Shown: positions 11,090 to 40,782 of the stretch, piece after piece
Layout of the letters: each line of letters opens with the position of its first letter
Numbering within the stretch: position 1 is the stretch's first letter
From: an uncultured Ruminococcus sp.
Lineage (GTDB): Bacteria > Bacillota > Clostridia > Oscillospirales > Acutalibacteraceae
Length of the DNA: 40,795 nt
Reading direction: 5' to 3'
Assembly (NCBI GenBank): GCA_902777275.1
Contig: CACYTI010000020.1
Span: 1 to 40,795, forward strand
Notes under the pieces: generated by a model
Databases searched by the model: none
What the model saw: only the letters and a program-made list of their open reading frames with translations
What the model was told of the DNA's origin: nothing
Made by a program: the position numbers and the translations under genes

Positions 11090-11127
11090 AAAATTCACCT
11101 CCGATAAAATAGGTTTTACCGCAGTTC

Positions 11128-11250
11128 AAAAAAACTGTCCGAAGCGCGCACCTCGGACAGTTGACAAATACTAAAAAGTAATTGCACTTTCCTCGGCAGG
11201 TAAGGAATAACCTTTTTACGCATTGCACCTACTGTCTTTAGAACCGCAAT
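11128..11250 (-). ncRNA. Ribosomal L10 leader with attenuator hairpin
   Basis: The minus-strand leader between rplA and rplJ carries the recognisable pattern AGACAGTAGGTGCAATGCG, then CCTTACCTGCCGAGG, as in Firmicute L10 leaders that bind L10(L12)4. It ends in a 10-bp terminator stem (AACTGTCCGA with TCGGACAGTT, 11,133-11,162) followed by a U-run, about 40 nt before the rplJ start. This fits autogenous control by attenuation, based on family knowledge. Confidence 0.85.
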
Positions 11251-11272
11251 ATATATTCAATTCAAAAATGAA

Positions 11273-20138: not shown

Positions 20139-20304
20139 AGTCGAAAACAACCGAAATCAGGGTGATGATTGGTATAAACTTCCAAAACATTTATGGTGAT
20201 TTGTAGGAGTTGCACAAATTTCATTAGAAAATTGTATTTTATTATTCGGAAACGGAACGATAGATGTAAGAAACGTAAAAATAATTAAAAATGACAAAAA
20301 TCAC

Positions 20305-20333
20305 TTGAAAACCGCCGTGAGTCATGGTATAAT
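20305..20333 (+). promoter_or_regulatory. Promoter of the fibro-slime surface protein gene
   Basis: TTGAAA (20,305-20,310) and TATAAT (20,328-20,333) have 17-bp spacing. The start point would be near 20,340, leaving a leader of about 285 nt. Confidence 0.75.
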
Positions 20334-20339
20334 TACTAT

Positions 20340-20605
20340 ATCTAAATGTGGAATAGTGCGTTCTTTTCGGCCGAATCGCGGTACTATATCAAATAAACCG
20401 CGCTTCACCAAGGGTCAGTTGGTAAAAGCTGTGACAGTGCAAAAGCGGATATCCAAAGCGACGATCATTGCGGCGTAACGCAGGGCATCAACCCTGAGCG
20501 CCCTGCAATAAGCCTCGACGCCGTTGGATAGAAGGTAATCAAGCTTTGAGTATCGTCGCGCCGCCGCACAAGTGCGCATGGTTTACCGCATTTGAAAAAT
20601 CATTT
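20340..20605 (+). ncRNA. Structured 5' leader RNA of unknown class
   Basis: Nested pairings can be read directly. GCGGTA (20,378-20,383) pairs with TACCGC (20,584-20,589). GCGACGAT (20,458-20,465) pairs with ATCGTCGC (20,552-20,559), CGGCGT (20,471-20,476) with ACGCCG (20,518-20,523), and GCAGGGC (20,480-20,486) with GCCCTGC (20,500-20,506). Side hairpins are ACCAA/TTGGT (20,407-20,423), CGCTT/AAGCG (20,401-20,447) and CGCAC/GTGCG (20,565-20,576). No known riboswitch consensus was recognised. It ends about 20 nt before the ribosome binding site of the 2110-residue protein. Confidence 0.55.
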
Positions 20606-20623
20606 AAAATTGGAGGTTAACAC

Positions 20624-23600
20624 ATGAAAAAACAAATCAAGCGGTTTTCAAAGTCAACGCTTGCAGTTGTTCTTACGCTGTGTATGCTGCTTTCGTGCGT
20701 CACGGTAGGAATCATTTCCACCAATGCGGCGCAGGTTGACAGCGACTCAACCGGCGCCAACGTCTTTATGCACTATTCCAGCACTGACACCGGATTCGGC
20801 ACCAATCCGACAAATGTCGGAATAGACAGCACGGTCACGCTGGGCAGCGTTGCCAAAGGCGCGTTCTATGTCAGCGTAGACGGCAATTCATATAGCGCGA
20901 CAAGTGACAACTGGATCTCAAGCGTCGATCTCGGCAGCAATGTCTACGACGACGGCACGGGTGAGAACAACAATTGTAAGTACCGCAGACTCTACTTCGG
21001 TAAGGCGATGACCAACGTCAAGTTCACTTACAGCGGCGGAAAGCTCACCGTTACTACCGAACCCACTTATACTATCACAACCAGCGCGGGCGCGGGCGGT
21101 TCGCTTTCGGCAAATATGAGCAGAGCGGCGGCCGGCGAAACCGTGACCCTTACCATTACCCCCGAACGCGGAAAGGTGCTCGATGCTCTTACAGTTAAAG
21201 ACGCTGACAACGTAGATGTTAGTGTTTCCGGCTCGGGCAACACAAGAACATTCACCATGCCGGCTAAAAATGTTACGGCGAACGCAACATTCACAAATGC
21301 GCCGTCGTACACCGTTACCGCAAATCAGGTAAGCACCGGCAACGGTAAAATCAGGATCGCCATCTCGGGCGCGGGCTCCGCGACAGCTACAACGGGTGGC
21401 TCGGCAACATTGGCGGCGTACAGCGGTGAAACGCTGACGATCACAGCTTCTCCCGAAAGAGGCTATGCCATCGACACTATCACTGTTACGAACGGCGACA
21501 CTACCACTACATACACGTCAAACCCGCCCGCTATCACAATCGGCGCGAATGTGACTGTATCGGCGACATTTAAAAAAGGTACGTCGCTTGATAATGAATA
21601 CGACGCCTCACCGGGCAGCTCTATTACGGGCAATTCCAATCTTTATTCCGGTATCAACGCAACGTTCTACGATTATTACACCGATGATGAAGTAAACGGC
21701 TCTTGGTATACAAGCATCGACGGATACGAGGACGCGTGGATCGGCGGTATCAGGAGAAGAAATCCCTACACAGCCCTCAACTCAGCGCTTTCCGAATACG
21801 CTCAGCAAAACAGCGTTCAGTACCCTATGTATTTCGGTTCGTTCTATGTCAACGGCTATCAGGATCCCGGTTATTATCACAGCTCTCCCGGCAACCCTAA
21901 CTGGGGCGAGAAAATCAATGACTCCAACAGCTTAGGCGGCAATACTAAGTCACTTCCGGGTCTTGCGGGCTTGAATATAAACGATGGTATGATCCATTAC
22001 TCCGCTTCCAACACGACCGCCAACGGCGCGGATATGGTGCTCTTTGATAAGCAGTGGCTCACATCCCGCGGCACATCGGATCCTGATGCGGACAAGTTAA
22101 AGCTGGTCTACAATGATACCTATAACTGGTCGGCATCCAATGCAAAGGTATATGTTGGCTTCCGTGGCAGTTGGCCTAATGAATATTGGGTCGAAATGAC
22201 ACATGACAGCACAAACAAGCGTTATACAGCCGAGATACCTTCCGGATGGGAAAACAACAATGTTGTATTCGCCAGAATCAATCCTTCATATTCACTGGAA
22301 ACTGGTAACCTTTCTAACGCTCAGGCTAACTGGAACATTCTTGACGACTCGAACAAATGTTGGAATAAAACAGGAACCGGTATTTCAAGAGACGGTTTGA
22401 CATATACCTTGACCTCATGGACAGCCGGTACATGGTCAGGCTCTTACAACGGACCTCTTGCTTCTTTCGTCAACACTCCGTTCCCTGTTCGCAAGACTAC
22501 CAAAAACGACGCCACTTATTATGAGTTCAACAGTGAAAACGCCACGGACAACATTTACTTTGACGATCTTACCGGCGGCAGCCCCGTTGTCCAGTACGGC
22601 GCTGGCACGACCTACGGACAGAAGAACGGTTATGACAGCGGCAGCGGTAACCAATACGGCTTCTACCCGTTTGATAAGTATACCGATCAAAAACGCCCGG
22701 GTCTGGATTGGACAAAGGATTTCGGTAAAGACCTTGCTTTCGGCATGAAGCTTGAGATCAAATTCACACTCGGTATGAACGGTCAGATCCTCGCGGAGGA
22801 CGGCGTTACAAAGGTTTCTCAGGTATTTGACTTCTCGGGAGACGATGACCTCTGGGTATACATCGACAACGAGCTTATTCTTGACCTCGGCGGCGACCAC
22901 TGCAAAACAGTAGGTACTATCGACTTTAACACCCGTACAATTGAATATGTAAATTCCGATACAAAACTTACAAACGCAAGAAATCAAAGCTTTGCTTCTA
23001 AGATCGACAACACAAATCCGAAGCAGCTCCATACCATGACCCTCTACTACTTAGAGCGCGGTATGCATGAGTCCAACCTTAAGTTCGGATTCAGCTTCAA
23101 CCCCCTCACCGACGAGGTCGAGCTTGAAAAAGAGGTCAAGGTTGATGCTGTCAACGAAGGACTTCAGGCACAGGTTGCGGCTGCGGATGATTTTGACTTC
23201 ACATTTGTTGATTCAACCGACAGCTCAAAGGGAAAGAACACATCCTACACCCTTCACAACGCCACTACCAAAGAGCTGTTAGACCCCAGCACCGGCACAA
23301 CATCCGATACGGGCGTTCTCAGCGGCTTGAAAGACAATCAGTATGCTGAGATCAAAAAAGGCTTTAACGTAAAGGACATCATCAGCATTACCGAAAGCGA
23401 TCCGAACACAGCTAACGGTTTACAGTACAAGACGTCTTACAAGATTATTGACGAAGAGGTTGACACCTCTGTTATGAGCAACGAGATCACTCACGGCACG
23501 GGACTCAGCACGGGCAATTTCCCGTATGATACAATCGTTCCCGACGCTAACCCGTATATCAACCTGACACACATGAGAGCGATCTTCACCAACGAGGTTG

Positions 23601-26600
23601 AGACAAAGAATCTCACCATCACAAAGGAGATCAGCAATAAGTACGATCCCGACGCTCAGTTCCCGATAACGGTTGGTATTTCCGTAGGCGGAAACGCTCT
23701 TAACACAAACAGTCTGCAATTCTACAGAGACGGTTCGTCAACAGCAGAGACATTCTCGGGCGGCAAGGCTTATATCAAGCAGGGCGAAGAAATCGAGATC
23801 CCCGGCATCCCGAAGGGTGCGAAGGTCACCGTAAGTGAAACTACGCCTATGCCGGCTAACTACTCATTCGTCAGCATAGACAATGACGCACATTCAGTCA
23901 ACGGAACTATAAACACAAACGGTTATAAACTTAACACAGACGATTATGTGACAATCGTCAACAAGATCGCCGAGAATGGTCTCATCATCACAAAAGCTCT
24001 TGACAATGACGTTGTTGACTACGGAACAGCGTTTAAGATCAAGATCGAGAGATCCGATGATAACGGCGCGACCTATACACAGGTTACGGATACCCTGAAA
24101 TACACTCATTATGAATGGAACACATCTTCCTCATCATATGTACCGGTAACTGAAACGCTGGCAGCTACAGGCGCAAACAATGAGTACCAGATACACAGCG
24201 GCTGCCAGCTTGTTATTCCCAATCTGCCCGTAGGCACAAAGATCAGGGTTATTGAGACCGACTTCGCTTCCGACTACTATGAGTATAACGACATGACGAT
24301 CGAAGGCGGCGCGACTCTGCTCAAGGACAACGCCAATAGAACCGGAATAGTTACAATGGGCAGCTCGGCTGCGACTCTTACAATCAAAAATAAGGCTATA
24401 AGAGAAACCATTATCATAACCAAGACTACCGATTATGATCAGGATAATTCACTCTTCGGCATTAAGGTTGAAATGAAGCAGCGCAACAGCAACGGCAACA
24501 GAGTTCCAAATAACAATGGTACGTATAAGGTTCTCGGAACAGATACGACTTGGTTGGATCATAACAACGCCGACGGCAACGGAACCTACAATATCAAAAA
24601 GACCGGACAAATCAAATTTGAGAATGTTCCGCGCGGAACATATGTGCAGATCACAGAGCCATTTATCGGTAATTCTCCCGTTACAGGCAATCAGAGATTT
24701 ACTGCTAACTTCGTTCACGTTACCAACAGCACCGGAGCTACTGAAGGAACCAATTATCTGAATACAAATTGGCAGTGCATAGCGTCCACACCCGGCGGAC
24801 AGGTAAATGTTGAGGTCAATAACAAAGTCATGAAAAATAATGTTATTATCACCAAAAACATTGTAGACGCCGACGACACAGATACCGAGCATACTATCAC
24901 TGTTACCATTACCAAGGACAGCGGCGATAAAGGCGGCTCTGCCTACGACAACATGACCTACACAAGCTCAAAGAACGGCGAGCAAACCGTAGCCAACGGT
25001 TCGGCGATCAGCATTGTTGAGAACGAAACTCTTACATTCTCACGCTATCCCGTAGGCACACACTTCACTGTTTCCGAAACGGCAGCGGGCACAAACTATG
25101 AGTTTGACAGCTTCACTGCTCAGACCGTTGCTGATAAGACCGTTGACGGCTCGACTATCACATTCAAAACCACCGACACATCCGGCGGCGACAACGTTAC
25201 TGTTAACAACAAGCTCGGAATGAGAAATCTCACGATCAAAAAGCTTGTGGACAATTACACAACAAGCGATAAGTTCACAATTACGATTGAAACAAAGCTC
25301 GGAGAAGGAAACTGGACTCCTCTTGCAAACACTGCTTTCACAAGCGACAAGACAGAACGTACCGACCTTACAACCGACGCTCAAGGCAAGACAACGATTT
25401 CTCAGGACGAAACTCTTACACTTGCTGTCAAGGTAGGCAGTCAGGTAAGAATCACTGAAACCGTACCTGCAGGTTACGATGACGACAAGACGGATCTTTT
25501 CGATGCAGTTAAGCACGGAACCACAACTCCTCCCACATCAACCTCAACGGATCAAAACTGGCTCTCCTTCGTTATTGATGATGCGGATGTAGACGTAACT
25601 ATCACAAACTCTCTCCAGACTTACAACTATGTGATCAAGTACATCTATGAGGCTTATTCTGCAACAACCTACACGAGCAAGACTGAGAAGGATCCGGCAC
25701 ACCGCGTAACCGGTGAACCTCGCAGCTATACTCAGAGAGGCGAGATCACGCAAGCTGACCTCGACACCTACTTTAAAATTGACCCGACCACTAAGGAGAT
25801 AACCTTTAGGGACGCCACTGCGCGCAAGAACTTCATCAACAAGTTCGCGCCTTATGAGGACGACTTTATGATGGGCATTGAGTGGAGCGACAAGAACCCG
25901 AAATCTGCTGATTACAGCGACGGCACTATCTCGCTTGAAACAACAGGTGAATCCATGCCCAACAGAGAAGTTAAGGCTTACTTCATGCTGCCCTATGAGG
26001 TTGACGGAAACCTTGCCGCAACAAGCACAACAAAGCTTCCTGCCGAGGTCAAGGATCCTGTAATGACAACTCAGTACGGCAACTGGGTAACCACAAACGG
26101 CGAGTATCAGGATGAGGAAGCGGCAGCATTTGTAACCGCTCCCAGAGAGCTTACAAGCGGCGGAACAACCTATTACTTCCAGTATTGGCAGATCACCTTT
26201 GTAACCGGTTCCGACGAGCAGCATGACAAGGTTGAAAATAACACCAAGAAGTGCTACTTTGACAAGTTCAATATGACCCTGTATCAGGATTCTTACATTG
26301 AGCCGATTTATAAGAGCGCAGCCGAGGGCGGAAGCACTTCATTCAGACCGAGCGATGCTTCTTATGAAGACACCAAGGGCGGCGAGGCTACGATCAGCTT
26401 TATTGAGACCTCACGCAGCAGCTGGAACGAGGACGGCGCTCCCGATCAGTCTACCGACGCCAAGAAGAAGGCCGGCGACAGAGTTTACTCTGACTTCCTC
26501 CTGACCTTCGGCTACAAGGACAAGCAGCTCAACTCCGGCAACGGAACTATTGACGGCGTAGATGTAAAGATCGGCTTTGTACTTGAAAGAGTTGCCGAGC

Positions 26601-26956
26601 TTGACAAGGTTGGCGACAAGTATGTGACAAAATCACAGGCTGAGTATAAGACGGCTTATGATAACGGAATTGATGATAACAAGGTTATTAATTACATCAA
26701 CGGTGCAACTGTTGACAACTTCCTTTTGAAGGATAATATCGCATTCAGCACTCTTGACAACAAGAACCAGATGAAGTATTCTCTCGATATGAAGAATAAA
26801 GAATTCAGCACGCTTGCTGAGCCTACAAGTCCTTACAGGAACTATGTATACAGAGCGTATACTTACACAAAGATTGGTGACGACAATGTTGTTGTAAGCA
26901 CACCTGTTTACTTTACAATTTATGACATTGCTTCCATCGAAAATGGAACTGTTTAA
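20624..26956 (+). CDS. Giant secreted fibro-slime surface protein, 2110 aa
   Basis: A Sec signal peptide (about residues 1-36, ending STNAAQV) is followed by two beta repeats with the pattern GETVTLTITPERGK (about 148-226 and 227-317). After a glycine/asparagine/tyrosine-rich region comes a fibro-slime (PA14-related) domain (about 640-826) with DFSGDDDLWVYIDNELILDL. Next are about six Ig-like domains from 831 to 1665, several opening with ITK (LTITKEIS, LIITKALDN, IIITKTTD, VIITKNIVD, LTIKKLVDN). They share TVSET-like motifs, as in Cna-B/DUF5979-like stalks. The last 440 residues are unrecognised. There is no LPXTG motif, C-terminal membrane helix or dockerin, so attachment is unclear. GGAGG precedes ATG 20,624. 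Probably an adhesin. Confidence 0.88.
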   Translation: MKKQIKRFSKSTLAVVLTLCMLLSCVTVGIISTNAAQVDSDSTGANVFMHYSSTDTGFGTNPTNVGIDSTVTLGSVAKGAFYVSVDGNSYSATSDNWISSVDLGSNVYDDGTGENNNCKYRRLYFGKAMTNVKFTYSGGKLTVTTEPTYTITTSAGAGGSLSANMSRAAAGETVTLTITPERGKVLDALTVKDADNVDVSVSGSGNTRTFTMPAKNVTANATFTNAPSYTVTANQVSTGNGKIRIAISGAGSATATTGGSATLAAYSGETLTITASPERGYAIDTITVTNGDTTTTYTSNPPAITIGANVTVSATFKKGTSLDNEYDASPGSSITGNSNLYSGINATFYDYYTDDEVNGSWYTSIDGYEDAWIGGIRRRNPYTALNSALSEYAQQNSVQYPMYFGSFYVNGYQDPGYYHSSPGNPNWGEKINDSNSLGGNTKSLPGLAGLNINDGMIHYSASNTTANGADMVLFDKQWLTSRGTSDPDADKLKLVYNDTYNWSASNAKVYVGFRGSWPNEYWVEMTHDSTNKRYTAEIPSGWENNNVVFARINPSYSLETGNLSNAQANWNILDDSNKCWNKTGTGISRDGLTYTLTSWTAGTWSGSYNGPLASFVNTPFPVRKTTKNDATYYEFNSENATDNIYFDDLTGGSPVVQYGAGTTYGQKNGYDSGSGNQYGFYPFDKYTDQKRPGLDWTKDFGKDLAFGMKLEIKFTLGMNGQILAEDGVTKVSQVFDFSGDDDLWVYIDNELILDLGGDHCKTVGTIDFNTRTIEYVNSDTKLTNARNQSFASKIDNTNPKQLHTMTLYYLERGMHESNLKFGFSFNPLTDEVELEKEVKVDAVNEGLQAQVAAADDFDFTFVDSTDSSKGKNTSYTLHNATTKELLDPSTGTTSDTGVLSGLKDNQYAEIKKGFNVKDIISITESDPNTANGLQYKTSYKIIDEEVDTSVMSNEITHGTGLSTGNFPYDTIVPDANPYINLTHMRAIFTNEVETKNLTITKEISNKYDPDAQFPITVGISVGGNALNTNSLQFYRDGSSTAETFSGGKAYIKQGEEIEIPGIPKGAKVTVSETTPMPANYSFVSIDNDAHSVNGTINTNGYKLNTDDYVTIVNKIAENGLIITKALDNDVVDYGTAFKIKIERSDDNGATYTQVTDTLKYTHYEWNTSSSSYVPVTETLAATGANNEYQIHSGCQLVIPNLPVGTKIRVIETDFASDYYEYNDMTIEGGATLLKDNANRTGIVTMGSSAATLTIKNKAIRETIIITKTTDYDQDNSLFGIKVEMKQRNSNGNRVPNNNGTYKVLGTDTTWLDHNNADGNGTYNIKKTGQIKFENVPRGTYVQITEPFIGNSPVTGNQRFTANFVHVTNSTGATEGTNYLNTNWQCIASTPGGQVNVEVNNKVMKNNVIITKNIVDADDTDTEHTITVTITKDSGDKGGSAYDNMTYTSSKNGEQTVANGSAISIVENETLTFSRYPVGTHFTVSETAAGTNYEFDSFTAQTVADKTVDGSTITFKTTDTSGGDNVTVNNKLGMRNLTIKKLVDNYTTSDKFTITIETKLGEGNWTPLANTAFTSDKTERTDLTTDAQGKTTISQDETLTLAVKVGSQVRITETVPAGYDDDKTDLFDAVKHGTTTPPTSTSTDQNWLSFVIDDADVDVTITNSLQTYNYVIKYIYEAYSATTYTSKTEKDPAHRVTGEPRSYTQRGEITQADLDTYFKIDPTTKEITFRDATARKNFINKFAPYEDDFMMGIEWSDKNPKSADYSDGTISLETTGESMPNREVKAYFMLPYEVDGNLAATSTTKLPAEVKDPVMTTQYGNWVTTNGEYQDEEAAAFVTAPRELTSGGTTYYFQYWQITFVTGSDEQHDKVENNTKKCYFDKFNMTLYQDSYIEPIYKSAAEGGSTSFRPSDASYEDTKGGEATISFIETSRSSWNEDGAPDQSTDAKKKAGDRVYSDFLLTFGYKDKQLNSGNGTIDGVDVKIGFVLERVAELDKVGDKYVTKSQAEYKTAYDNGIDDNKVINYINGATVDNFLLKDNIAFSTLDNKNQMKYSLDMKNKEFSTLAEPTSPYRNYVYRAYTYTKIGDDNVVVSTPVYFTIYDIASIENGTV

Positions 26957-26975
26957 GGAGGAGGTTATAATCGAA

Positions 26976-27122
26976 ATGAGAAAAGATTATTTTTCACCTG
27001 AGTTTGAATTGGTAAAGTATAGTTTTGAAAGAACTTTGGAAGGCGATGATGATGATGAATATTACAACATTCGTCACAGCATTCCCCAAGACATCGGCGA
27101 GGGCAGCGGAGTTCTCGACTAA
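26976..27122 (+). CDS. 48-aa acidic peptide, candidate modified-peptide precursor
   Basis: The peptide opens MRKDYFSPEFELVKYSFERT, continues through the acidic run EGDDDDEYY and ends GEGSGVLD. It has no signal peptide and no cysteine. The SPEFELVK opening resembles small, poorly characterised peptides that recur in Ruminococcaceae, from general recall and not checked. AAGGAGGAGG (26,955-26,964) overlaps the stop of the giant surface protein and sits 11 nt before the ATG, so it is translated from the same mRNA. A downstream gene encodes an HPr-kinase-like protein, and serines at 35 and 44 are conceivable targets. Function is unknown. Confidence 0.7.
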   Translation: MRKDYFSPEFELVKYSFERTLEGDDDDEYYNIRHSIPQDIGEGSGVLD

Positions 27123-27137
27123 AGAATAATTAAACCA

Positions 27138-27166
27138 AGGCGGCGCATAGTTTCTATGCGCTGCCT
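27138..27166 (+). other. mRNA hairpin between peptide and LRR-dockerin genes
   Basis: A 12-bp stem (AGGCGGCGCATA with TATGCGCTGCCT, one G-T wobble) encloses a 5-nt loop and has no T-run. It ends 5 nt before the next start codon, so it could set RNA stability or relative expression rather than terminate. Confidence 0.7.
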
Positions 27167-27171
27167 GTGAT

Positions 27172-28059
27172 ATGGTGAAAAAAATGAAAAAAATGAAAAA
27201 AGCTTTTGCGGCTGTATTTGCCGCCGCACTGGTTGTGTTGTCGGTCACGGGCGTTTTTGCCGATTCTGTTTTTTACGCCGACGGCTATTATTACACTTTT
27301 ATAAACAACGATAAGGTTGCGCTGACGGGGTGGGATTATCCTTCAACAGTGTTGAAGGTTCCCGATTCTTTAAACGGAAGAGCGGTTGCGGCTGTTGCCG
27401 CGCACTCGTTTTACGAGGATGCGCAGCTTACCGGAATAGATTTTTCGGAAGCCGCACACCTGGAAACTATCGGTAAGTACGCTTTTGCGAAGTGCCCTTC
27501 GCTGAGTGAGCCGCTGACAATTCCCGAGAGCGTTACAACCTTGGGTGATTCGGCTTTTGAGAGATCCGGAGTTACCGATGTTACGATCAACTGTTCGGCG
27601 GATTATATCCCGACACAGTGCTTTAACCGATGTGAATCGCTGACGAGTGTTACAATAAACGGAGCTGCAGAGGAAATCGGCGTTTACGCTTTTGCTAATT
27701 GCCCGAGCCTTGAGTATGTCAGTATCCCCGAATCGGTAAGCTCTATTGACGAATACGCGTTTTATAATTCTCCGAACGTTACGCTCAAGGTTTATTTTAA
27801 CTCGTATGCGCATCAGTTCGCAAAAGACAACGGTTTGACATATGATTTCCTTGACGATTATATCAAGGGCGACGCCGACTTTAACGGCGTTGTCAACGTC
27901 AACGACGTCACGGCAATCCAGCGTCACGTTGCCGAGTTTGAATTGTTGAACGAGCTTCAAGTGAAGGCAGCTGACGTCACGGGAGACGGCGGCTTAGCGG
28001 TTGCTGACGCTACATACCTCCAGCGGTATCTCGCGGAGTATGCCGACGCGGTTTTATAA
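27172..28059 (+). CDS. Secreted BspA-type LRR protein with dockerin
   Basis: The 295-residue protein has a signal peptide (about 1-31, cleavage near GVFA-DS). BspA-type LRR_5 repeats follow (about 60-215; LETIGKYAFAKCPSL, VTTLGDSAFERSG, EEIGVYAFANCPSLEYVSIP). A C-terminal type I dockerin (about 232-295) has two Ca-binding loops, DADFNGVVNVNDVTAIQRHV and DVTGDGGLAVADATYLQRYL. Dockerins bind cohesins, so the protein is probably displayed through a scaffoldin encoded elsewhere. ATG 27,172 is listed; ATG 27,184, with GGTG 6 nt upstream, is equally plausible. It probably shares the mRNA of the upstream surface protein and peptide. Confidence 0.88.
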   Translation: MVKKMKKMKKAFAAVFAAALVVLSVTGVFADSVFYADGYYYTFINNDKVALTGWDYPSTVLKVPDSLNGRAVAAVAAHSFYEDAQLTGIDFSEAAHLETIGKYAFAKCPSLSEPLTIPESVTTLGDSAFERSGVTDVTINCSADYIPTQCFNRCESLTSVTINGAAEEIGVYAFANCPSLEYVSIPESVSSIDEYAFYNSPNVTLKVYFNSYAHQFAKDNGLTYDFLDDYIKGDADFNGVVNVNDVTAIQRHVAEFELLNELQVKAADVTGDGGLAVADATYLQRYLAEYADAVL

Positions 28060-28079
28060 TTAAAATTCAGCAAAAAAAG

Positions 28080-28106
28080 GTGCCTGATTAGTTCGGGCAC
28101 TTTTTT
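28080..28106 (+). terminator. Terminator after the first LRR-dockerin gene
   Basis: An 8-bp stem (GTGCCTGA with TTCGGGCAC, one wobble) and 5-nt loop are followed by TTTTTT, 21 bp after the stop. Confidence 0.85.
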
Positions 28107-28130
28107 GTTGCATTTGCTTGTTTGTTTATG

Positions 28131-28136
28131 TATAAT
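28131..28136 (+). promoter_or_regulatory. Possible -10 box of the kinase-like gene
   Basis: TATAAT lies 17 bp downstream of a poor -35 (TTGCAT, 28,108-28,113), directly after the preceding terminator and 18 bp before the start codon. The leader would be very short. Confidence 0.4.
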
Positions 28137-28153
28137 TAAAACGGTGATTTGAT

Positions 28154-28879
28154 ATGAAAGTTAAAATCGCAGGCTTGATCGTTGAGCTTGACCCGAAATA
28201 TGAAGAAACAAAAAAGCTTGCCGCGCCCTTTTTGTATGACGGAGACCGCGAGGCAGACATAACTCTGAAAATAGACGGGGAGTACTTTAAGGATTTGTGC
28301 AGCCGCGCCGCCGAAGGAGTTACAACGGAAGAGCTTGAAAATTTTGCTTTTTCAACGCAGTTTAACCGCCGTGCTATCCGTTTTCAAACAATGCTTGTTC
28401 ATTCCTCGGCAATCGTTTGCGACGGAAAGGCATATTTGTTTTCAGCCGATTCGGGCGTTGGAAAGTCCTTCCACACTCGGCTGTGGCTAAAAGCATTCGG
28501 CAACCGCGTACATATCCTAAACGATGACAAGCCCGTTGTGCGTTTGAGCGGTGATGAACCTGTAGTGTGCGGAACACCCTTTGACGGCGGAAGCGGAATC
28601 GCGCTGAATGAGAGCTTTCCATTGGGCGCGATCGTTTTTATCGAAAGGGGAGACCGGAATTCGGTGCGTGTCCCCAAAACAAAAGAAATCATACAGAGAT
28701 TATATTTTCAAACAGCGAGAATGGTTAGCGCCGCAACAGCGGACAAGATGCTCGATAACTTTACGCTCCTGATCTCAATGACTAAGTTTTATGTATTGAC
28801 CTGTAACACGGATATTTCAGCCGCGTACACGGCTTACGACGCGATTATCGGAAACAATAGTTATGAACAAAACAATTAA
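28154..28879 (+). CDS. HPr kinase-like P-loop protein
   Basis: The 241-residue cytosolic protein resembles the HprK-related kinases (often labelled PEP-carboxykinase-like) found beside short peptide genes. The N-terminal part (1-80) is variable. Then come LVHSSAIVCDGKAYLFSADS, Walker A SGVGKS (100-105), the acidic NDDKP motif (123-127) and GTPFDGGSG (139-147). The C-terminus has the family-like TDISAAYTAYDAI. Relatives phosphorylate serine on proteins, and some modify lasso-peptide precursors (family knowledge). Here the obvious candidate substrate is the 48-residue peptide upstream, which is an inference. The regulatory domain of true HprK is absent. Confidence 0.75.
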   Translation: MKVKIAGLIVELDPKYEETKKLAAPFLYDGDREADITLKIDGEYFKDLCSRAAEGVTTEELENFAFSTQFNRRAIRFQTMLVHSSAIVCDGKAYLFSADSGVGKSFHTRLWLKAFGNRVHILNDDKPVVRLSGDEPVVCGTPFDGGSGIALNESFPLGAIVFIERGDRNSVRVPKTKEIIQRLYFQTARMVSAATADKMLDNFTLLISMTKFYVLTCNTDISAAYTAYDAIIGNNSYEQNN

Positions 28880-28920
28880 TCTGTAAATTTCTCCAAAAAT
28901 AGTGACAAATATTGATTTTT

Positions 28921-28947
28921 ATGGTAGTATTTAATCAATACTACCAT
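28921..28947 (+). terminator. Hairpin directly before the second LRR-dockerin gene
   Basis: An 11-bp perfect stem (ATGGTAGTATT with AATACTACCAT) and 5-nt loop are followed by TTCTTTTT. It lies 41 bp after the kinase stop and only 8 nt before the next ribosome binding site, so it may act as terminator and as attenuator. Confidence 0.75.
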
Positions 28948-28970
28948 TTCTTTTTAAGGAGGAAATGTTT

Positions 28971-31900
28971 ATGAAAAAGCTTATAAGTATTATACTTGCG
29001 GCTTGTCTGCTGATTTCGCTTTTGCCGTTTTCAGTCAGCGCGGCAGAAGCAGAAAGCAAATCAACAGGCGTGAACTGGTCTTATAACGAAGGAACCGGGA
29101 CACTTACTATCAGCGGTAGCGGCAGCATGGACAACTACTACAAGCAGGGCCTTGCGCCGTGGAATGATAAACTCAGCGAAGTTGAGATTATCAAAATAGG
29201 CGAGGGAATTACATCAGTAGGCGACTATTCATTTTACGGCGCTGCAAATGTTTACAAGGTCGAGCTTCCCGACAGTCTTGAAAGGATAGGTCACTATGCT
29301 TTTTACAAGAACGGACTTTTTTCGGCAGAGCTGCCCGAAAGCCTTAAAATCATCGGCGCCTACGCGTTTGCCTTTTGCGAGGATATGACCTCTGTCAACA
29401 TTCCCGACGGAATGACCGAGATCGGCACAAGGGCGTTTTTGGCGACGAATCTGTCAAGCGTCAGAATTCCGGCAGATTTGAGCAATATCGGGTTTTACGC
29501 GTTCGGTTATGATAACAACGGCAATAAGATCCGGGACTTTGCGGTTTACGGCTACACAGGCTCCGGAGCGGCAACTTTTGCTGTGTCAAACAGCTTTATC
29601 TTTATTGATTTGAACAGCTCCGAGTACGATGTTTTTGTTGCATCCGGCAAGGCATGGAACATGATGACGAGGCAGTGGGTGACAAAGGCTCGCGCCGGAG
29701 AAAAAATCAAGGTGCTTCCCGATCTGCGTCAATATGATATTTTCGACGGATTCACTGTCGAAACAGAGGGCTTGACGCTTGACTCAGACGGAGTTTTCTT
29801 CATGCCCGCGCAGAATGTCAATATTACTGTAAATTATCACGCCGCGATGTCGCTCACGATTGATTTTAGATTTAACGATACCGTCGTGCTTAATGAGGAC
29901 ACGGTAAGCTTCCTGAAATCATATTTCGCTTACGCATTGGTTTACAGCGGCGGCACGCCTGCCGGATACGACCTTGACAGCGACGGAAGCGCAGATGTGC
30001 AGTTTACGGGCGCAGCGGTAAGCAAACTCGCCACGTCGAGCATAACCAAGTCGGTCGGTTTTGACACGGGCGAAGATATTTCCCCGATAACATTTGTTTT
30101 CGCGCCGAATCTTATAGAAGATACATGGCTCGATGTGTCGATCCCTAATGCAGGTGATACCTACGACTACGAACACGACCAGGCAGAGGTGACAATTTAT
30201 TCCGACGATTACACCATTGTGAGCGCAAAGTGGTTCAACGAGTGGGGAATAGCGGAGCCGACGTTTGTTGAGGGTCACCGTTATTTTGTCGAAATGGAAA
30301 TAAAACCGAATGAATACTGCGCGTTTTCCATGATGACGGATTTTAATATCAACGGCACGGCGAAAAAACCTTGGGATATGAAGAGCGACGGAACGGTCAG
30401 CGTTTCATCAAAGAATTTTACAATCCCGGGTGGACCGCATAAAATTTATGTTTCCGGAGGCTTGGCTTCAACCGCGAGCGACGACTATGAAGGGTATCAC
30501 AGCGTCACCGAGGCGCGGGCGGGAGATATCGTGTATGTATGTCCCGACGGAAAAGATTTAGGCGATGATGAGTACATTGTTCAGAACAGCATGGAATATT
30601 ATTCCGACGACGTTGAAATCACGGGAGAAGCAGCACAGTATTTTGTAATGGGCACGGAAGATGTTGAAGTCGAGGTGACCTATGAAAAACGCAAGCTTTT
30701 GAGCTGCGAAATGGATCTGCGCAACGGAGCCGAATATGAGCCTGCCGACTATATTCAGGGCGAAGGCGGTTATGTTACAAGCCAGATTTACGGCATCTAT
30801 ATCATTTTGCAGAAAATGTCGGAGGATGCTCATTCCGAATATGACACAAGCTTGGGTGTGTTTAAATATGAATACGACATTGACGGCGACGGAACCTTTG
30901 ATGTCGGTTTCTATAACGGCAGCTACAAGCTCCTGAACACAAGCAGTCTAAGCAGCGCATCGGGAAGAATTACCCTGAAGCTCAGGCGTTCCGAGTGCTT
31001 TACTGTTCCAATGCAAACACTGACGATCATTTTTGCAGATCCGACTTCGTCCGCGCACAGTATTTTTGTAAACGGCGGTCTCGCGTATATAAGCGCTAAA
31101 GGAGACACGCCCGTGACCGAGGCATATAAGGGAGAGTGGGTCACGCTCAAGCCCGACTTTGACACTCTCGCCGATAATCAGTATATTGTTCAGCTCACCG
31201 CAGAAGCATCTTCAAAGGATGTTGAGATTTACGGTGAAAGCTGGCCTGCTTTTACAATGCCCGACAAGAACGTTAATATTTCATACGTCTATGATGTCGG
31301 CGAGCAGATAAGTCCTGTTCTTGATTTGACAAACGGAAAAACCTACATAGCATCTCAGGAGGGCAGATACGCCGAGAGTGAGGTGTACGGCATATACTTT
31401 GTTCTCTTCCAAAAATCAAAAAGACAAAGCTTTGAGTATAGCGAAGAGGAGGGCGGATATATAAATGAGTTTGATATCGACGGCTGCGGCGGCTATGACG
31501 TCGGCTTTAATCAGGCAAAGCGAAGCTTTTATTTGCTCGATACCTGTTCCCTTGTCCCCGCGTCGGGCAGAGTGACCCTTTCGCTTTCGAGGGAGGAGTC
31601 CTACACGGTCCCCGCCCGCAGGATCACCCTGCTGCTCGCCGGAGTTCATAATCCGCACAAGATAACCGTCAACGGCGGATTCGCTTCAAGTAAGCCCGAC
31701 GGCTACGGATATCGGATTTCGCAGGAATACAACGGAGAGGTTGTGTATATTCTCGCAGATCCTGCACAGATTCCCGAAGGCAAATATATCAAGTCGATGA
31801 CAGTGACCTCAAACGACGTTGAGATCGTTAACGCCGATTGCCCCTATTTTGTCATGCCCGATAAGAATGTCAAGATAAAGGTGAACTATACACTTGCAAA

Positions 31901-32408
31901 TAAAAAGGCTTATACGCTTGATTTGTCCTCTGGCGAAAAAACGGTCGGCGGAGAAATTTATAATGTGTTGAGCGCACTGCGCAAGGGCTCGAAAATCAGC
32001 GATGAATATTATAATGAGGTTTTGGGCAGTGTATGCTGCGATTACGACATTGACGGCGACGGCAGAACGGATATTCAATGCATTTTCGGGCAAAACAAGT
32101 TTATTAAGGTGAACAATAAGCTGAAAGGCGGAGTCATTCTTTCACTCAAGCCCGAGCAGGCTTGCTTTGAGCGATGCTGTCCGCTTACGGTTCTTTTCGG
32201 CAACGTGCTCGTGGGCGACGTCAACCTCGACGGTGTGGTGAATGTTGCCGACGCAACGGCTTTGCAGCGCCATTTAGCGGAGTTCAACGGCGCGGAAATT
32301 GACGTGAACAATCAGGATATCAAAACGGTCGCCGATGTTAACGCGGACGGAGTTATAGACGTCAGGGACGTTACGGCGATCCAAAGAATAGCGGCAGAAA
32401 TGGCTTGA
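28971..32408 (+). CDS. Secreted LRR, tandem-repeat and dockerin protein, 1145 aa
   Basis: A signal peptide (about 1-25, ending SVSAAEA) is followed by BspA-type LRR_5 repeats (about 30-210; IGEGITSVGDYSFYG, LKIIGAYAFAFCEDM). The main body is a composite repeat of about 190 residues, present three to four times. One part is a GGLA...GE.V domain ending in MPDKNVNI-type strands. The other carries a calcium-loop-like motif (YDLDSDGSADVQF, YDIDGDGTFDVGF, FDIDGCGGYDVGF, YDIDGDGRTDIQC). The C-terminal dockerin contains DVNLDGVVNVADATALQRHL and DVNADGVIDVRDVTAIQRIA. ATG 28,971 is chosen over 28,965 because AAGGAGG is 8 nt away. It is probably displayed on the cell or cellulosome through a cohesin. 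Confidence 0.88.
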   Translation: MKKLISIILAACLLISLLPFSVSAAEAESKSTGVNWSYNEGTGTLTISGSGSMDNYYKQGLAPWNDKLSEVEIIKIGEGITSVGDYSFYGAANVYKVELPDSLERIGHYAFYKNGLFSAELPESLKIIGAYAFAFCEDMTSVNIPDGMTEIGTRAFLATNLSSVRIPADLSNIGFYAFGYDNNGNKIRDFAVYGYTGSGAATFAVSNSFIFIDLNSSEYDVFVASGKAWNMMTRQWVTKARAGEKIKVLPDLRQYDIFDGFTVETEGLTLDSDGVFFMPAQNVNITVNYHAAMSLTIDFRFNDTVVLNEDTVSFLKSYFAYALVYSGGTPAGYDLDSDGSADVQFTGAAVSKLATSSITKSVGFDTGEDISPITFVFAPNLIEDTWLDVSIPNAGDTYDYEHDQAEVTIYSDDYTIVSAKWFNEWGIAEPTFVEGHRYFVEMEIKPNEYCAFSMMTDFNINGTAKKPWDMKSDGTVSVSSKNFTIPGGPHKIYVSGGLASTASDDYEGYHSVTEARAGDIVYVCPDGKDLGDDEYIVQNSMEYYSDDVEITGEAAQYFVMGTEDVEVEVTYEKRKLLSCEMDLRNGAEYEPADYIQGEGGYVTSQIYGIYIILQKMSEDAHSEYDTSLGVFKYEYDIDGDGTFDVGFYNGSYKLLNTSSLSSASGRITLKLRRSECFTVPMQTLTIIFADPTSSAHSIFVNGGLAYISAKGDTPVTEAYKGEWVTLKPDFDTLADNQYIVQLTAEASSKDVEIYGESWPAFTMPDKNVNISYVYDVGEQISPVLDLTNGKTYIASQEGRYAESEVYGIYFVLFQKSKRQSFEYSEEEGGYINEFDIDGCGGYDVGFNQAKRSFYLLDTCSLVPASGRVTLSLSREESYTVPARRITLLLAGVHNPHKITVNGGFASSKPDGYGYRISQEYNGEVVYILADPAQIPEGKYIKSMTVTSNDVEIVNADCPYFVMPDKNVKIKVNYTLANKKAYTLDLSSGEKTVGGEIYNVLSALRKGSKISDEYYNEVLGSVCCDYDIDGDGRTDIQCIFGQNKFIKVNNKLKGGVILSLKPEQACFERCCPLTVLFGNVLVGDVNLDGVVNVADATALQRHLAEFNGAEIDVNNQDIKTVADVNADGVIDVRDVTAIQRIAAEMA

Positions 32409-40698: not shown

Positions 40699-40782
40699 GC
40701 GAGTGTGCTGGAATAGGCAGACAGGCACGTTTGAGGGGCGTGTGTCTTTGACGTACGGGTTCAAGTCCCGTCACTCGCACCA
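40699..40782 (+). tRNA. tRNA-Leu, anticodon GAG, CCA encoded
   Basis: The acceptor stem GCGAGTG pairs with CACTCGC, followed by ACCA. The anticodon stem CACGT/GCGTG holds loop TTGAGGG, giving anticodon GAG (reads CUC/CUU). A long class II variable arm (TGTC-TTT-GACG) and T-loop TTCAAGT complete a tRNA-Leu. Confidence 0.95.

Follow-up and report, generated by a model that had tools for sequence, protein, structure and literature searches.

What is the gene of a small acidic peptide doing between those of a giant secreted protein and a kinase-like protein, and is the peptide a substrate for modification? The question is raised by a 40,795-nt contig of an uncultured Ruminococcus sp. (GCA_902777275.1, CACYTI010000020.1), the whole of which is called the window below. 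The secreted giant, the tiny acidic peptide, the two LRR-dockerin proteins, and the P-loop kinase-like gene described in the original prediction are all real and lie where they were claimed to be, and the giant, peptide, LRR-dockerin, and kinase genes all share the + strand, as claimed (Table 1). We consider it fairly likely that the window peptide is a precursor, one among several encoded at scattered sites, in an RiPP system resembling the Linear Polyphosphorylated Peptides (LPP).

Table 1. Genes and putative expression signals of the window cassette
Feature	Position	Strand	Evidence and remarks
Promoter-like site, TTGAAA-17-TATAAT, TG before -10	20305-20333	+	Consensus scan, 11/12 positions; ahead of the giant gene
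Secreted giant, 2110 aa	20624-26956	+	Signal-like N-terminal stretch, fibro-slime domain, six DUF7601 stretches
Precursor-like peptide, 48 aa	26976-27122	+	Leader motif, acidic tail; kinship to family peptides
Secreted LRR (BspA type) protein, 295 aa, C-terminal dockerin	27172-28059	+	Pfam LRR_5 108.9 bits, Dockerin_1 31.2 bits
Terminator-like hairpin, 14-pair stem followed by a T run	28074-28106	+	Consensus scan; between the 295-aa LRR-dockerin and the kinase
HprK-like P-loop kinase, 241 aa	28154-28879	+	SGVGKS Walker A, NDDK motif; structure match
Terminator-like hairpin 3' of the kinase	28921-28947	+	Consensus scan
Secreted LRR-dockerin, 1147 aa	28965-32408	+	LRR_5 and Dockerin_1 above cut-off; neighbor outside the conserved unit

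The fibro-slime domain of the giant (TIGR02148) scored 46.4 bits against a cut-off of 45, and the protein also holds InlB-type repeats and a beta-rich C-terminal domain without family assignment, the structure model of which was poor and uninformative (pLDDT 53.7). Its last 60 residues contain neither an LPXTG-like motif nor a strong hydrophobic segment. Counted with the promoter-like site of Table 1, the 5' UTR of the giant would be ~290 nt; such sites number 35 in the region versus 16.5 in shuffles, which is no evidence of function. The leader RNA that had been proposed before the giant did not hold up: the upstream sequence had no Rfam match, its fold z was only -2.05, and comparison with the sequences upstream of five other giants gave nothing better than E 0.05. 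A known leader RNA was rejected because there was neither an Rfam match nor upstream similarity.

The peptide start codon (26976) lies 19 bases past the giant stop, and its RBS, AAGGAGGAGG, overlaps that stop. The leader of the window peptide reads Y5-F-S-P8-E-F10. The family consensus is YxxPE(L/M/I)E(I/V)xxF(E/D)xxD(V/I)ITxS; in most family peptides this fixed leader ends in T-x-S and is followed by a hypervariable acidic tail. The window peptide is row 1 of the family alignment A4 (43 sequences), so its own-genome match with A4 (E 2.5e-9) is given by construction; it was also found independently, via alignment with the own-genome C1 and C32 peptides. Among 43 peptides found at 39 newly retrieved loci, the Tyr is present in 42, Pro at +3 in 41, Phe/Tyr at +10 in 39, Asp at +14 in 37, Thr at +17 in 28, and Ser at +19 in 38, with the reservation that A4 includes the Ser column and is biased toward finding Ser. 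Some of these loci are near-identical to congeners, and L275 is the same contig as L167, a profile member. After leaders near a profile row or near each other were removed, 33 remained, with Tyr in 32, Pro in 31, Phe/Tyr in 30, Asp in 29, Thr in 20, and Ser in 29. The tails of the 43 peptides are variable, consisting of 26% D+E and 2% K+R, and hold no Cys.

The kinase-like gene matched no Pfam family, and a PDB sequence search with its profile was uninformative; its AlphaFold model (pLDDT 94.3) matches HPr kinase/phosphorylase (1kkm, E 2e-6) and PEPCK. H83, G101, G103, K104, D125, and K126 are invariant in an alignment of 53 sequences (A7). Relatives with 61-71% identity to the window kinase in A7 (L120-L123, L125, L126, and L131) had no peptide in the stretches examined. 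The order giant-peptide-LRR-dockerin-kinase recurs in Ruminococcus bromii ATCC 27255 (L127), in a Ruminococcus MAG from the rumen (L128), and in G259, which belongs to the window's genus (L082). Their kinases share 46-58% identity with the window kinase, and an LRR-dockerin stands in the place of the 295-aa protein; the 1147-aa LRR-dockerin does not adjoin the unit in any of the three. All 80 named loci were scanned for peptides, and neighborhoods were viewed for 16 (L129 gave no rows, and L118 no neighborhood rows). The recurrence of this gene order exceeds chance. The proposed check, absence of co-occurrence beyond chance, did not refute the prediction. The LRR-dockerin neighbor was seen in the window's genus and its R. 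bromii relatives, and other carriers have other secreted proteins as peptide neighbors.

How widely is the peptide accompanied by modifying enzymes? A profile search detected the peptide family, with its leader Y-xx-P-E-hydrophobic, in 120 of 398 genomes of one family, and a chance ORF was rejected as an account of the window peptide because the peptide family is this wide. The HprK-like kinase was found in 182 of the 398 genomes overall and in 116 of the 120 peptide genomes (not detected in G258, G294, G349, and G375); at the peptide threshold of E<=0.05 per genome, ~20 chance genomes would be expected in 398, and matches in kinase-negative genomes amounted to only 4/216. The narrower peptide profile A3 left 7 of 54 peptide genomes without a kinase. 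Among 80 genomes, one per genus, all 22 peptide carriers have the kinase, all 22 a stand-alone PqqD/RRE, and 19 a SipW-type peptidase (undetected in three), G030, G031, G038, G062, G064, and G078 having been dropped as genomes whose sole PqqD match lay in a frame of ~470 aa or more. None of the 43 of these 80 genomes without kinase and without peptidase had a peptide. The window's own genome encodes three kinases (that of the window and two paralogues), three PqqD-like RREs, and three SipW-like peptidases with Ser/His/Asp in the motifs SMxP, HR(I/V), and GDN, the NCBIfam SipW/archaeal SpI match being weak and below cut-off. NTP_transf_5 was found on C16 (143.9 bits) and, fused to a peptidase, on C2 (130.7 bits). 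The best PDB match of the PqqD proteins was TbiB1 (E 0.0049 and 0.025). The RREs do not adjoin the window cassette, where the kinase is the only modifying enzyme gene; near-complete cassettes occur at L088, L089, L087, and L091. A plasmid search returned only three weak records. The proposed role of the kinase as modifier has to be widened to a set including RRE, SipW-type peptidase, and NTP transferase, mostly encoded elsewhere.

The peptide genes are found preferentially behind secreted-protein genes. From 40 loci, 43 peptides were obtained at 39 (L269 gave none); for seven of these peptides the preceding 900 bp held no ORF, and they were left out. A secreted protein, as defined by our own hydrophobicity rule and no trained predictor, lies upstream in 28 of the remaining 36 peptide rows, or in 25 of 33 distinct genes (three pairs share one upstream gene), compared with 95 of 533 background ORFs (Fisher 5e-12, relatedness ignored). 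At L115, L251, and L256, all of one genus, the upstream gene product resembles UvrC and is not a secreted protein, and the own-genome peptide C3:98430 stands ahead of its secreted neighbor. Of the five best own-genome peptides, four are followed by an LRR-dockerin and the fifth by a cohesin-TM protein. A ~95-aa C-terminal domain is common to 30 of 54 upstream proteins and was present in 25 of 40 peptide genomes versus 5 of 40 others, with a Pfam match in none of 26 scanned members. The peptide lies directly 3' of only 10 of the 30 domain loci (frame wrong or cut in six), and the C-terminal domain of the window giant did not align with this domain (hhalign probability 3%). A fixed partnership of the peptide with one C-terminal domain was rejected on these grounds; the pairing is with secreted proteins, and not with that domain alone.

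The following pathway would account for these observations. Judging from the adjacent genes and the overlapping RBS, the giant and the short precursor would be made together. The leader Y-xx-P-x-(L/M/I/F) would be held by a PqqD-type RRE encoded elsewhere, by analogy with LppB and lasso B1. The HprK-like kinase would phosphorylate the conserved Ser, which lies 19-20 residues beyond the Tyr, and addition of a sugar or nucleotide may be the task of the NTP_transf_5 enzyme; both enzymes are present, the chemistry being that predicted for them. A SipW-type Ser/His/Asp peptidase, which is likewise present, would cut at the T-x-S junction seen in most members to leave an acidic, cysteine-free core, and the gene pairing suggests that this core acts outside the cell with the neighboring secreted protein; surface attachment or assembly would be the most likely task of the two. 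The family peptides are probably phosphorylated. The modification proposed for the window peptide is partly supported in that an HprK-like kinase fits both the genome-wide co-occurrence and the published LPP pathway, but the window peptide has no T-x-S site.

The place of that site is taken by L21-E22-G23-D24, with Asp at the acceptor position and the Thr missing; moreover, a terminator-like hairpin stands ahead of the kinase and sets it apart, with the longest stem of 14 such sites in the region (13.0 in shuffles). Both observations count against our explanation. With T and S lost, there are two options for the window peptide: a divergent substrate of the neighboring kinase, which has itself diverged, or an unphosphorylated acidic partner of the giant. 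It is possible, although we do not favor it, that the peptide is degenerate or specialized, no longer phosphorylated, and either an acidic structural partner or a translation-coupled by-product of the giant, retaining leader recognition at most. The T-x-S site deviates also in the own-genome C1:86672 peptide and in those of L082 and L128, which speaks for this alternative. Against it, the R. bromii L127 peptide retains LTGS, the window peptide preserves the leader Y, P, E, and F, and four genomes preserve the linkage to an HprK-like kinase.

We regard it as unlikely that the peptides are secreted signals or antimicrobials, that is, linear lasso-like products whose genes ride behind secreted-protein genes by happenstance. 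Such a role is suggested by the RRE, HprK-like kinase, and NTP transferase that LPP and lasso systems have in common (PMC13381572 and PMC9266682) and by the many copies in some genomes (20, 16, and 12 peptide matches in three of them). However, the repeated placement behind secreted proteins is unexpected for bacteriocins, and of 80 genomes only one, which is peptide-free, had a lasso B2 (Transglut_core3) match above the Pfam cut-off; none of the 22 peptide genomes did. Since the best lasso B2 match in the window's own genome (22.3 bits) is below the cut-off of 26, a lasso peptide system was rejected. The searches for peptides, modifying enzymes, and neighboring genes found no evidence for signaling. 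That surface genes without mutual relation, a random ORF, and a housekeeping kinase lie together by chance is most improbable, for although 66 of the 182 kinase genomes are peptide-free at the threshold used and kinase relatives occur in other contexts, it is contradicted by the four-gene order kept in four genomes, the co-occurrence in 116/120 genomes and in one genome per genus, and the placement behind secreted proteins.

Since the LPP-like family is present in 120/398 genomes and its genes mostly follow those of secreted proteins, its site of action would seem to be the cell surface. The scattered-precursor reading could be extended, as a rather doubtful generalization, to a general Gram-positive surface-assembly system. 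In many Clostridia, large secreted proteins without a sortase motif and a C-terminal membrane anchor would then carry a dedicated RiPP partner each, and one shared trans-acting set of RRE, HprK-like kinase, NTP transferase, and SipW-type peptidase would convert all these partners into phospho- or glyco-peptides, by which the protein would be held, capped, or assembled on the cell surface. R. bromii, a cultured human gut species carrying the four-gene unit, is usable for tests. Among the matches listed (138 kinases and 150 peptides), 25 peptides have a listed kinase at a distance of 5 kb or less and 125 do not, which suggests that RiPP precursors can be far from their enzymes, so that many would be missed by cluster-based genome mining.

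The logic of a PqqD protein with an HprK-related kinase is also that of the TIGR04353 'HPr-rel-A system' PqqD, TIGR04355 HprK-related kinase B, and TIGR04249 SynChlorMet ScmC, to which matches were weak (18.4, 15.8, and 24.9 bits versus cut-offs of 35, 200, and 125). The R. bromii amylosome is built on cohesin-dockerin pairs, and dockerins are likewise carried by the LRR proteins behind four of the five own-genome peptides mentioned above; unlike the amylosome, the window cassette has no glycoside hydrolase among its genes, and the word 'leucine' is absent from the main text of the amylosome paper (PMC5814915). The gene at L009:11622-13940, near the C32 unit, encodes a dockerin protein that also contains two CBM26 stretches and an amylase C-terminal domain. 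Lasso systems of the paeninodin/pseudomycoidin type (PadeK, PsmK, PsmN) likewise apply an HprK-like kinase and an NTP transferase to an RRE-led precursor (PMC9266682), whereas in our family the leader motif has Tyr, not Trp, and the Ser is found close to where the leader ends instead of C-terminally.

The closest likeness is to LPP, an RiPP family defined by lppAKBSDN of Paenibacillus alginolyticus (Popov et al., 2026; PMC13381572); the defining paper calls the role of RiPPs of the LPP type and of the phosphorylated lasso type unknown. Common to both are the HprK-like kinase, a discrete RRE, a SipW/archaeal-type signal-peptidase-like leader peptidase, an uncharacterized NTP transferase, the YxxPx(hydrophobic) leader, a Thr followed by a Ser where leader and core meet (in most members), and a variable core. 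A possible counterpart of the MsbA-like LPP exporter (ABC_membrane + ABC_tran) occurs in L089 and L087, and none was seen in the neighborhoods of the own-genome enzyme loci. In LPP the Tyr occupies position -16, the Thr -1, and the Ser that is phosphorylated 3, which puts Thr at +15 and Ser at +18 from the Tyr (PMC13381572). The full LPP leader consensus YxxPxVLxHQxIxFETxxS differs from that of our family, which has F at +10 instead of +13 and T at +17 instead of +15; the acceptor Ser after Thr is present in most family peptides and is replaced in the window peptide (E22-G23-D24). The hosts here are Ruminococcus and other Clostridia, neither of which is named in the main text of the LPP paper (PMC13381572), and one peptidase is fused to an NTP transferase. 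What is new here, and unlike the LPP cluster, is that the precursors are mostly scattered over the genomes and tied to secreted-protein genes, with their enzymes mostly encoded elsewhere.

The 48-aa peptide of the window is a member of a widespread LPP-like RiPP family (LPP, Linear Polyphosphorylated Peptide), and the new feature of this family is that scattered precursors are paired with secreted proteins, with the enzymes in trans. The cassette around the peptide is real and conserved; as originally predicted, the giant, the peptide, two LRR-dockerins and the kinase-like gene are all present on the plus strand, and the ribosome-binding site of the peptide (AAGGAGGAGG) overlaps the stop codon of the giant. 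What had been taken for a leader RNA is a roughly 290-nt 5' UTR of the giant downstream of a promoter-like site, which showed modest folding (z -2.05), no match in an Rfam search, and nothing better than E 0.05 against the upstream regions of five other giants.

Features of the cassette and ordinary housekeeping features around it (window coordinates)
Feature	Position	Strand
tRNA-Arg	259-335	-
Ribosomal L10 leader	11120-11259	-
Secreted giant, 2110-aa	20624-26956	+
Peptide, 48-aa	26976-27122	+
LRR-dockerin, 295-aa	27172-28059	+
Kinase-like protein, 241-aa	28154-28879	+
LRR-dockerin, 1147-aa	28965-32408	+
tRNA-Leu	40699-40782	+

The window kinase had no match in a Pfam search. Its AlphaFold model (pLDDT 94.3, from a 53-sequence alignment, A7) matched HPr kinase/phosphorylase 1kkm (E 2e-6) and also many PEPCK structures, which bears out the HPr-kinase-like identity proposed for the P-loop gene. 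Among fully species-named records, Ruminococcus bromii ATCC 27255 has the nearest kinase (58% identity), and uncultured MAGs carry kinases up to 71% identical. The order giant, peptide, LRR-dockerin, kinase was also found in R. bromii (L127), a rumen Ruminococcus (L128) and G259, a genome of the window's genus (L082), with kinases 57.5, 56.0 and 45.7% identical to that of the window, respectively, and LRR-dockerins 31-33% identical, all three of the latter with LRR_5 and Dockerin_1 above the Pfam cut-off. The proposed surface unit recurs in three relatives except for the large LRR-dockerin, which is absent beside the unit in each of them. The idea of a fixed unit is weakened because no peptide was found within the stretches examined around the closest other kinases (L120-L123, L125, L126 and L131; 61-71% in A7) and because terminator-like hairpins flank the window kinase.

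Co-occurrence of peptide and kinase was confirmed at the genome level. With a five-peptide profile (A3), the kinase was present in 47 of 54 matching genomes, and most of the seven kinase-negative ones matched inside long frames. With a 43-peptide profile (A4), among 398 genomes of the window's bacterial family, the kinase was present in 116/120 peptide genomes compared with 182/398 overall (Fisher 1e-46, uncorrected for relatedness); 66 genomes had the kinase alone, 212 had neither, and only 4/216 kinase-negative genomes matched, at a threshold (E<=0.05 per genome) that allows about 20/398 chance matches. In a sample of one genome per genus (80 genomes), peptide genomes carried the kinase in 22/22 cases (37/80 overall), a stand-alone PqqD in 22/22 (43/80) and the peptidase in 19/22 (31/80), and the peptide was found in 0/43 genomes lacking both kinase and peptidase. 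Only 25 of the 150 listed peptides, spread over 20 genomes, have a listed kinase no more than 5 kb away, and in 24 of the 34 genomes with more than one listed peptide these lie on different contigs. A class-wide search (E<=0.001) found the peptide in 50/391 genomes, with a maximum of 20 matches per genome.

The window is contig C20 of a genome assembled in 57 contigs (2.59 Mb), in which the A4 profile gave nine matches at E<=1. Five of these (C20, C1 twice, C32 and C12) lie directly 3' of giants whose lengths run from 1770 to at least 3341 aa, and four of the five are followed by an LRR-dockerin (above the Pfam cut-off); behind the exception, on C12, lies a protein (L018:9245-10054) whose cohesin domain scores 24.2 bits (cut-off 24.1) and which has a hydrophobic segment at its C-terminus. 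Encoded right after the giant-peptide pair, it may anchor dockerin proteins to the surface. On C3, one peptide (46097) is downstream of a protein of 494 aa whose N-terminus is signal-like and another (98430) is upstream of an 885-aa LRR protein. The last two are located at the ends of C23 and C24 (L240:8868-9044 and L241:11-157); they are nearly identical, with a GPGPGP core, and probably mark a repeated locus at which the assembly was interrupted. The enzymes are encoded elsewhere: besides that of the window, kinases are found on C16, which also carries a second NTP_transf_5 (143.9 bits), and on C4, together with PqqD (50.6 bits) and a SipW-like peptidase; C10 encodes PqqD and a peptidase, and on C2 PqqD is accompanied by a fusion of peptidase and NTP_transf_5. 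This natural fusion (L239:8579-10054), directly 3' of the PqqD gene, ties the peptidase and the NTP transferase to one pathway.

The pairing with secreted proteins extends beyond this genome. A same-strand ORF ends within 100 bp upstream of 29/43 family peptides, and by our own rule the upstream protein is predicted to be secreted in 28/36 rows (25/33 distinct genes) compared with 95/533 background ORFs of at least 300 aa. Outside the family, the result concerns position alone: in 17/19 loci, an open frame of 377 codons or more on the same strand ends no more than 142 bp upstream. One genus (L115, L251, L256) is an exception, its upstream protein being presumably UvrC-like rather than secreted. 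No LPXTG-like motif was found in the last 60 residues of 54 upstream proteins. A C-terminal domain of ~95 aa, featuring a 'YARAYVxYxD..G...YS' strand pair, is common to 30 of these 54 otherwise different proteins from several genera; 26 were aligned (A6) and scanned, with no Pfam match.

The leader was compared in 43 peptides, taken from 39 newly retrieved loci; numbered from its Tyr (42), it showed Pro +3 (41), Phe/Tyr +10 (39), Asp +14 (37), Thr +17 (28) and Ser +19 (38), residues that the search favours, as A4 contains the counted columns. The corresponding numbers were 32, 31, 30, 29, 20 and 29 in a thinned set of 33 peptides, each with at least five leader differences from every profile row and from every other member. 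The region after Ser has no consensus (D+E 26%, K+R 2%, no Cys in the 43 peptides), and this abrupt end of conservation looks like that of a leader-core precursor. Judging from homology, family peptides are likely to be bound by RREs (here of the PqqD type) and phosphorylated. In the window peptide, Tyr, Pro and the +10 position (Tyr) are conserved and E22-G23-D24 stands in place of T-x-S; its own phosphorylation is doubtful.

In Popov et al. (PMC13381572), LPPs are described from Bacillota, studied in Bacilli, near capsule loci and with a role given as unknown; they have a precursor with a YxxP leader, a discrete RRE, an NTP transferase, an exporter, an HprK-like kinase that phosphorylates Ser3 and a SipW-like peptidase that cleaves after Thr-1. 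The terms 'Clostridi', 'Ruminococc', 'secreted' and 'surface protein' are absent from its main text. Within the literature searched, the phrase 'linear polyphosphorylated peptide' appeared in that paper only, and among the papers listed no report linked such peptides to secreted-protein genes. Excerpts of a rumen survey give, in a lasso context, HPr kinase in ~58%, PqqD in ~46% and nucleotidyltransferase in ~30% of genomes (PMC7533575). Near the C32 unit, a dockerin protein (L009:11622-13940) has two CBM26 (starch-binding) stretches and an alpha-amylase C-terminal domain; the window's genome therefore also has amylosome-type parts, like R. bromii. The likeness to LPPs extends to the peptidases, as SMxP, HR(I/V) and GDN are kept in all three of this genome, in agreement with the catalytic Ser, His and Asp of the leader peptidase LppS as given in PMC13381572.
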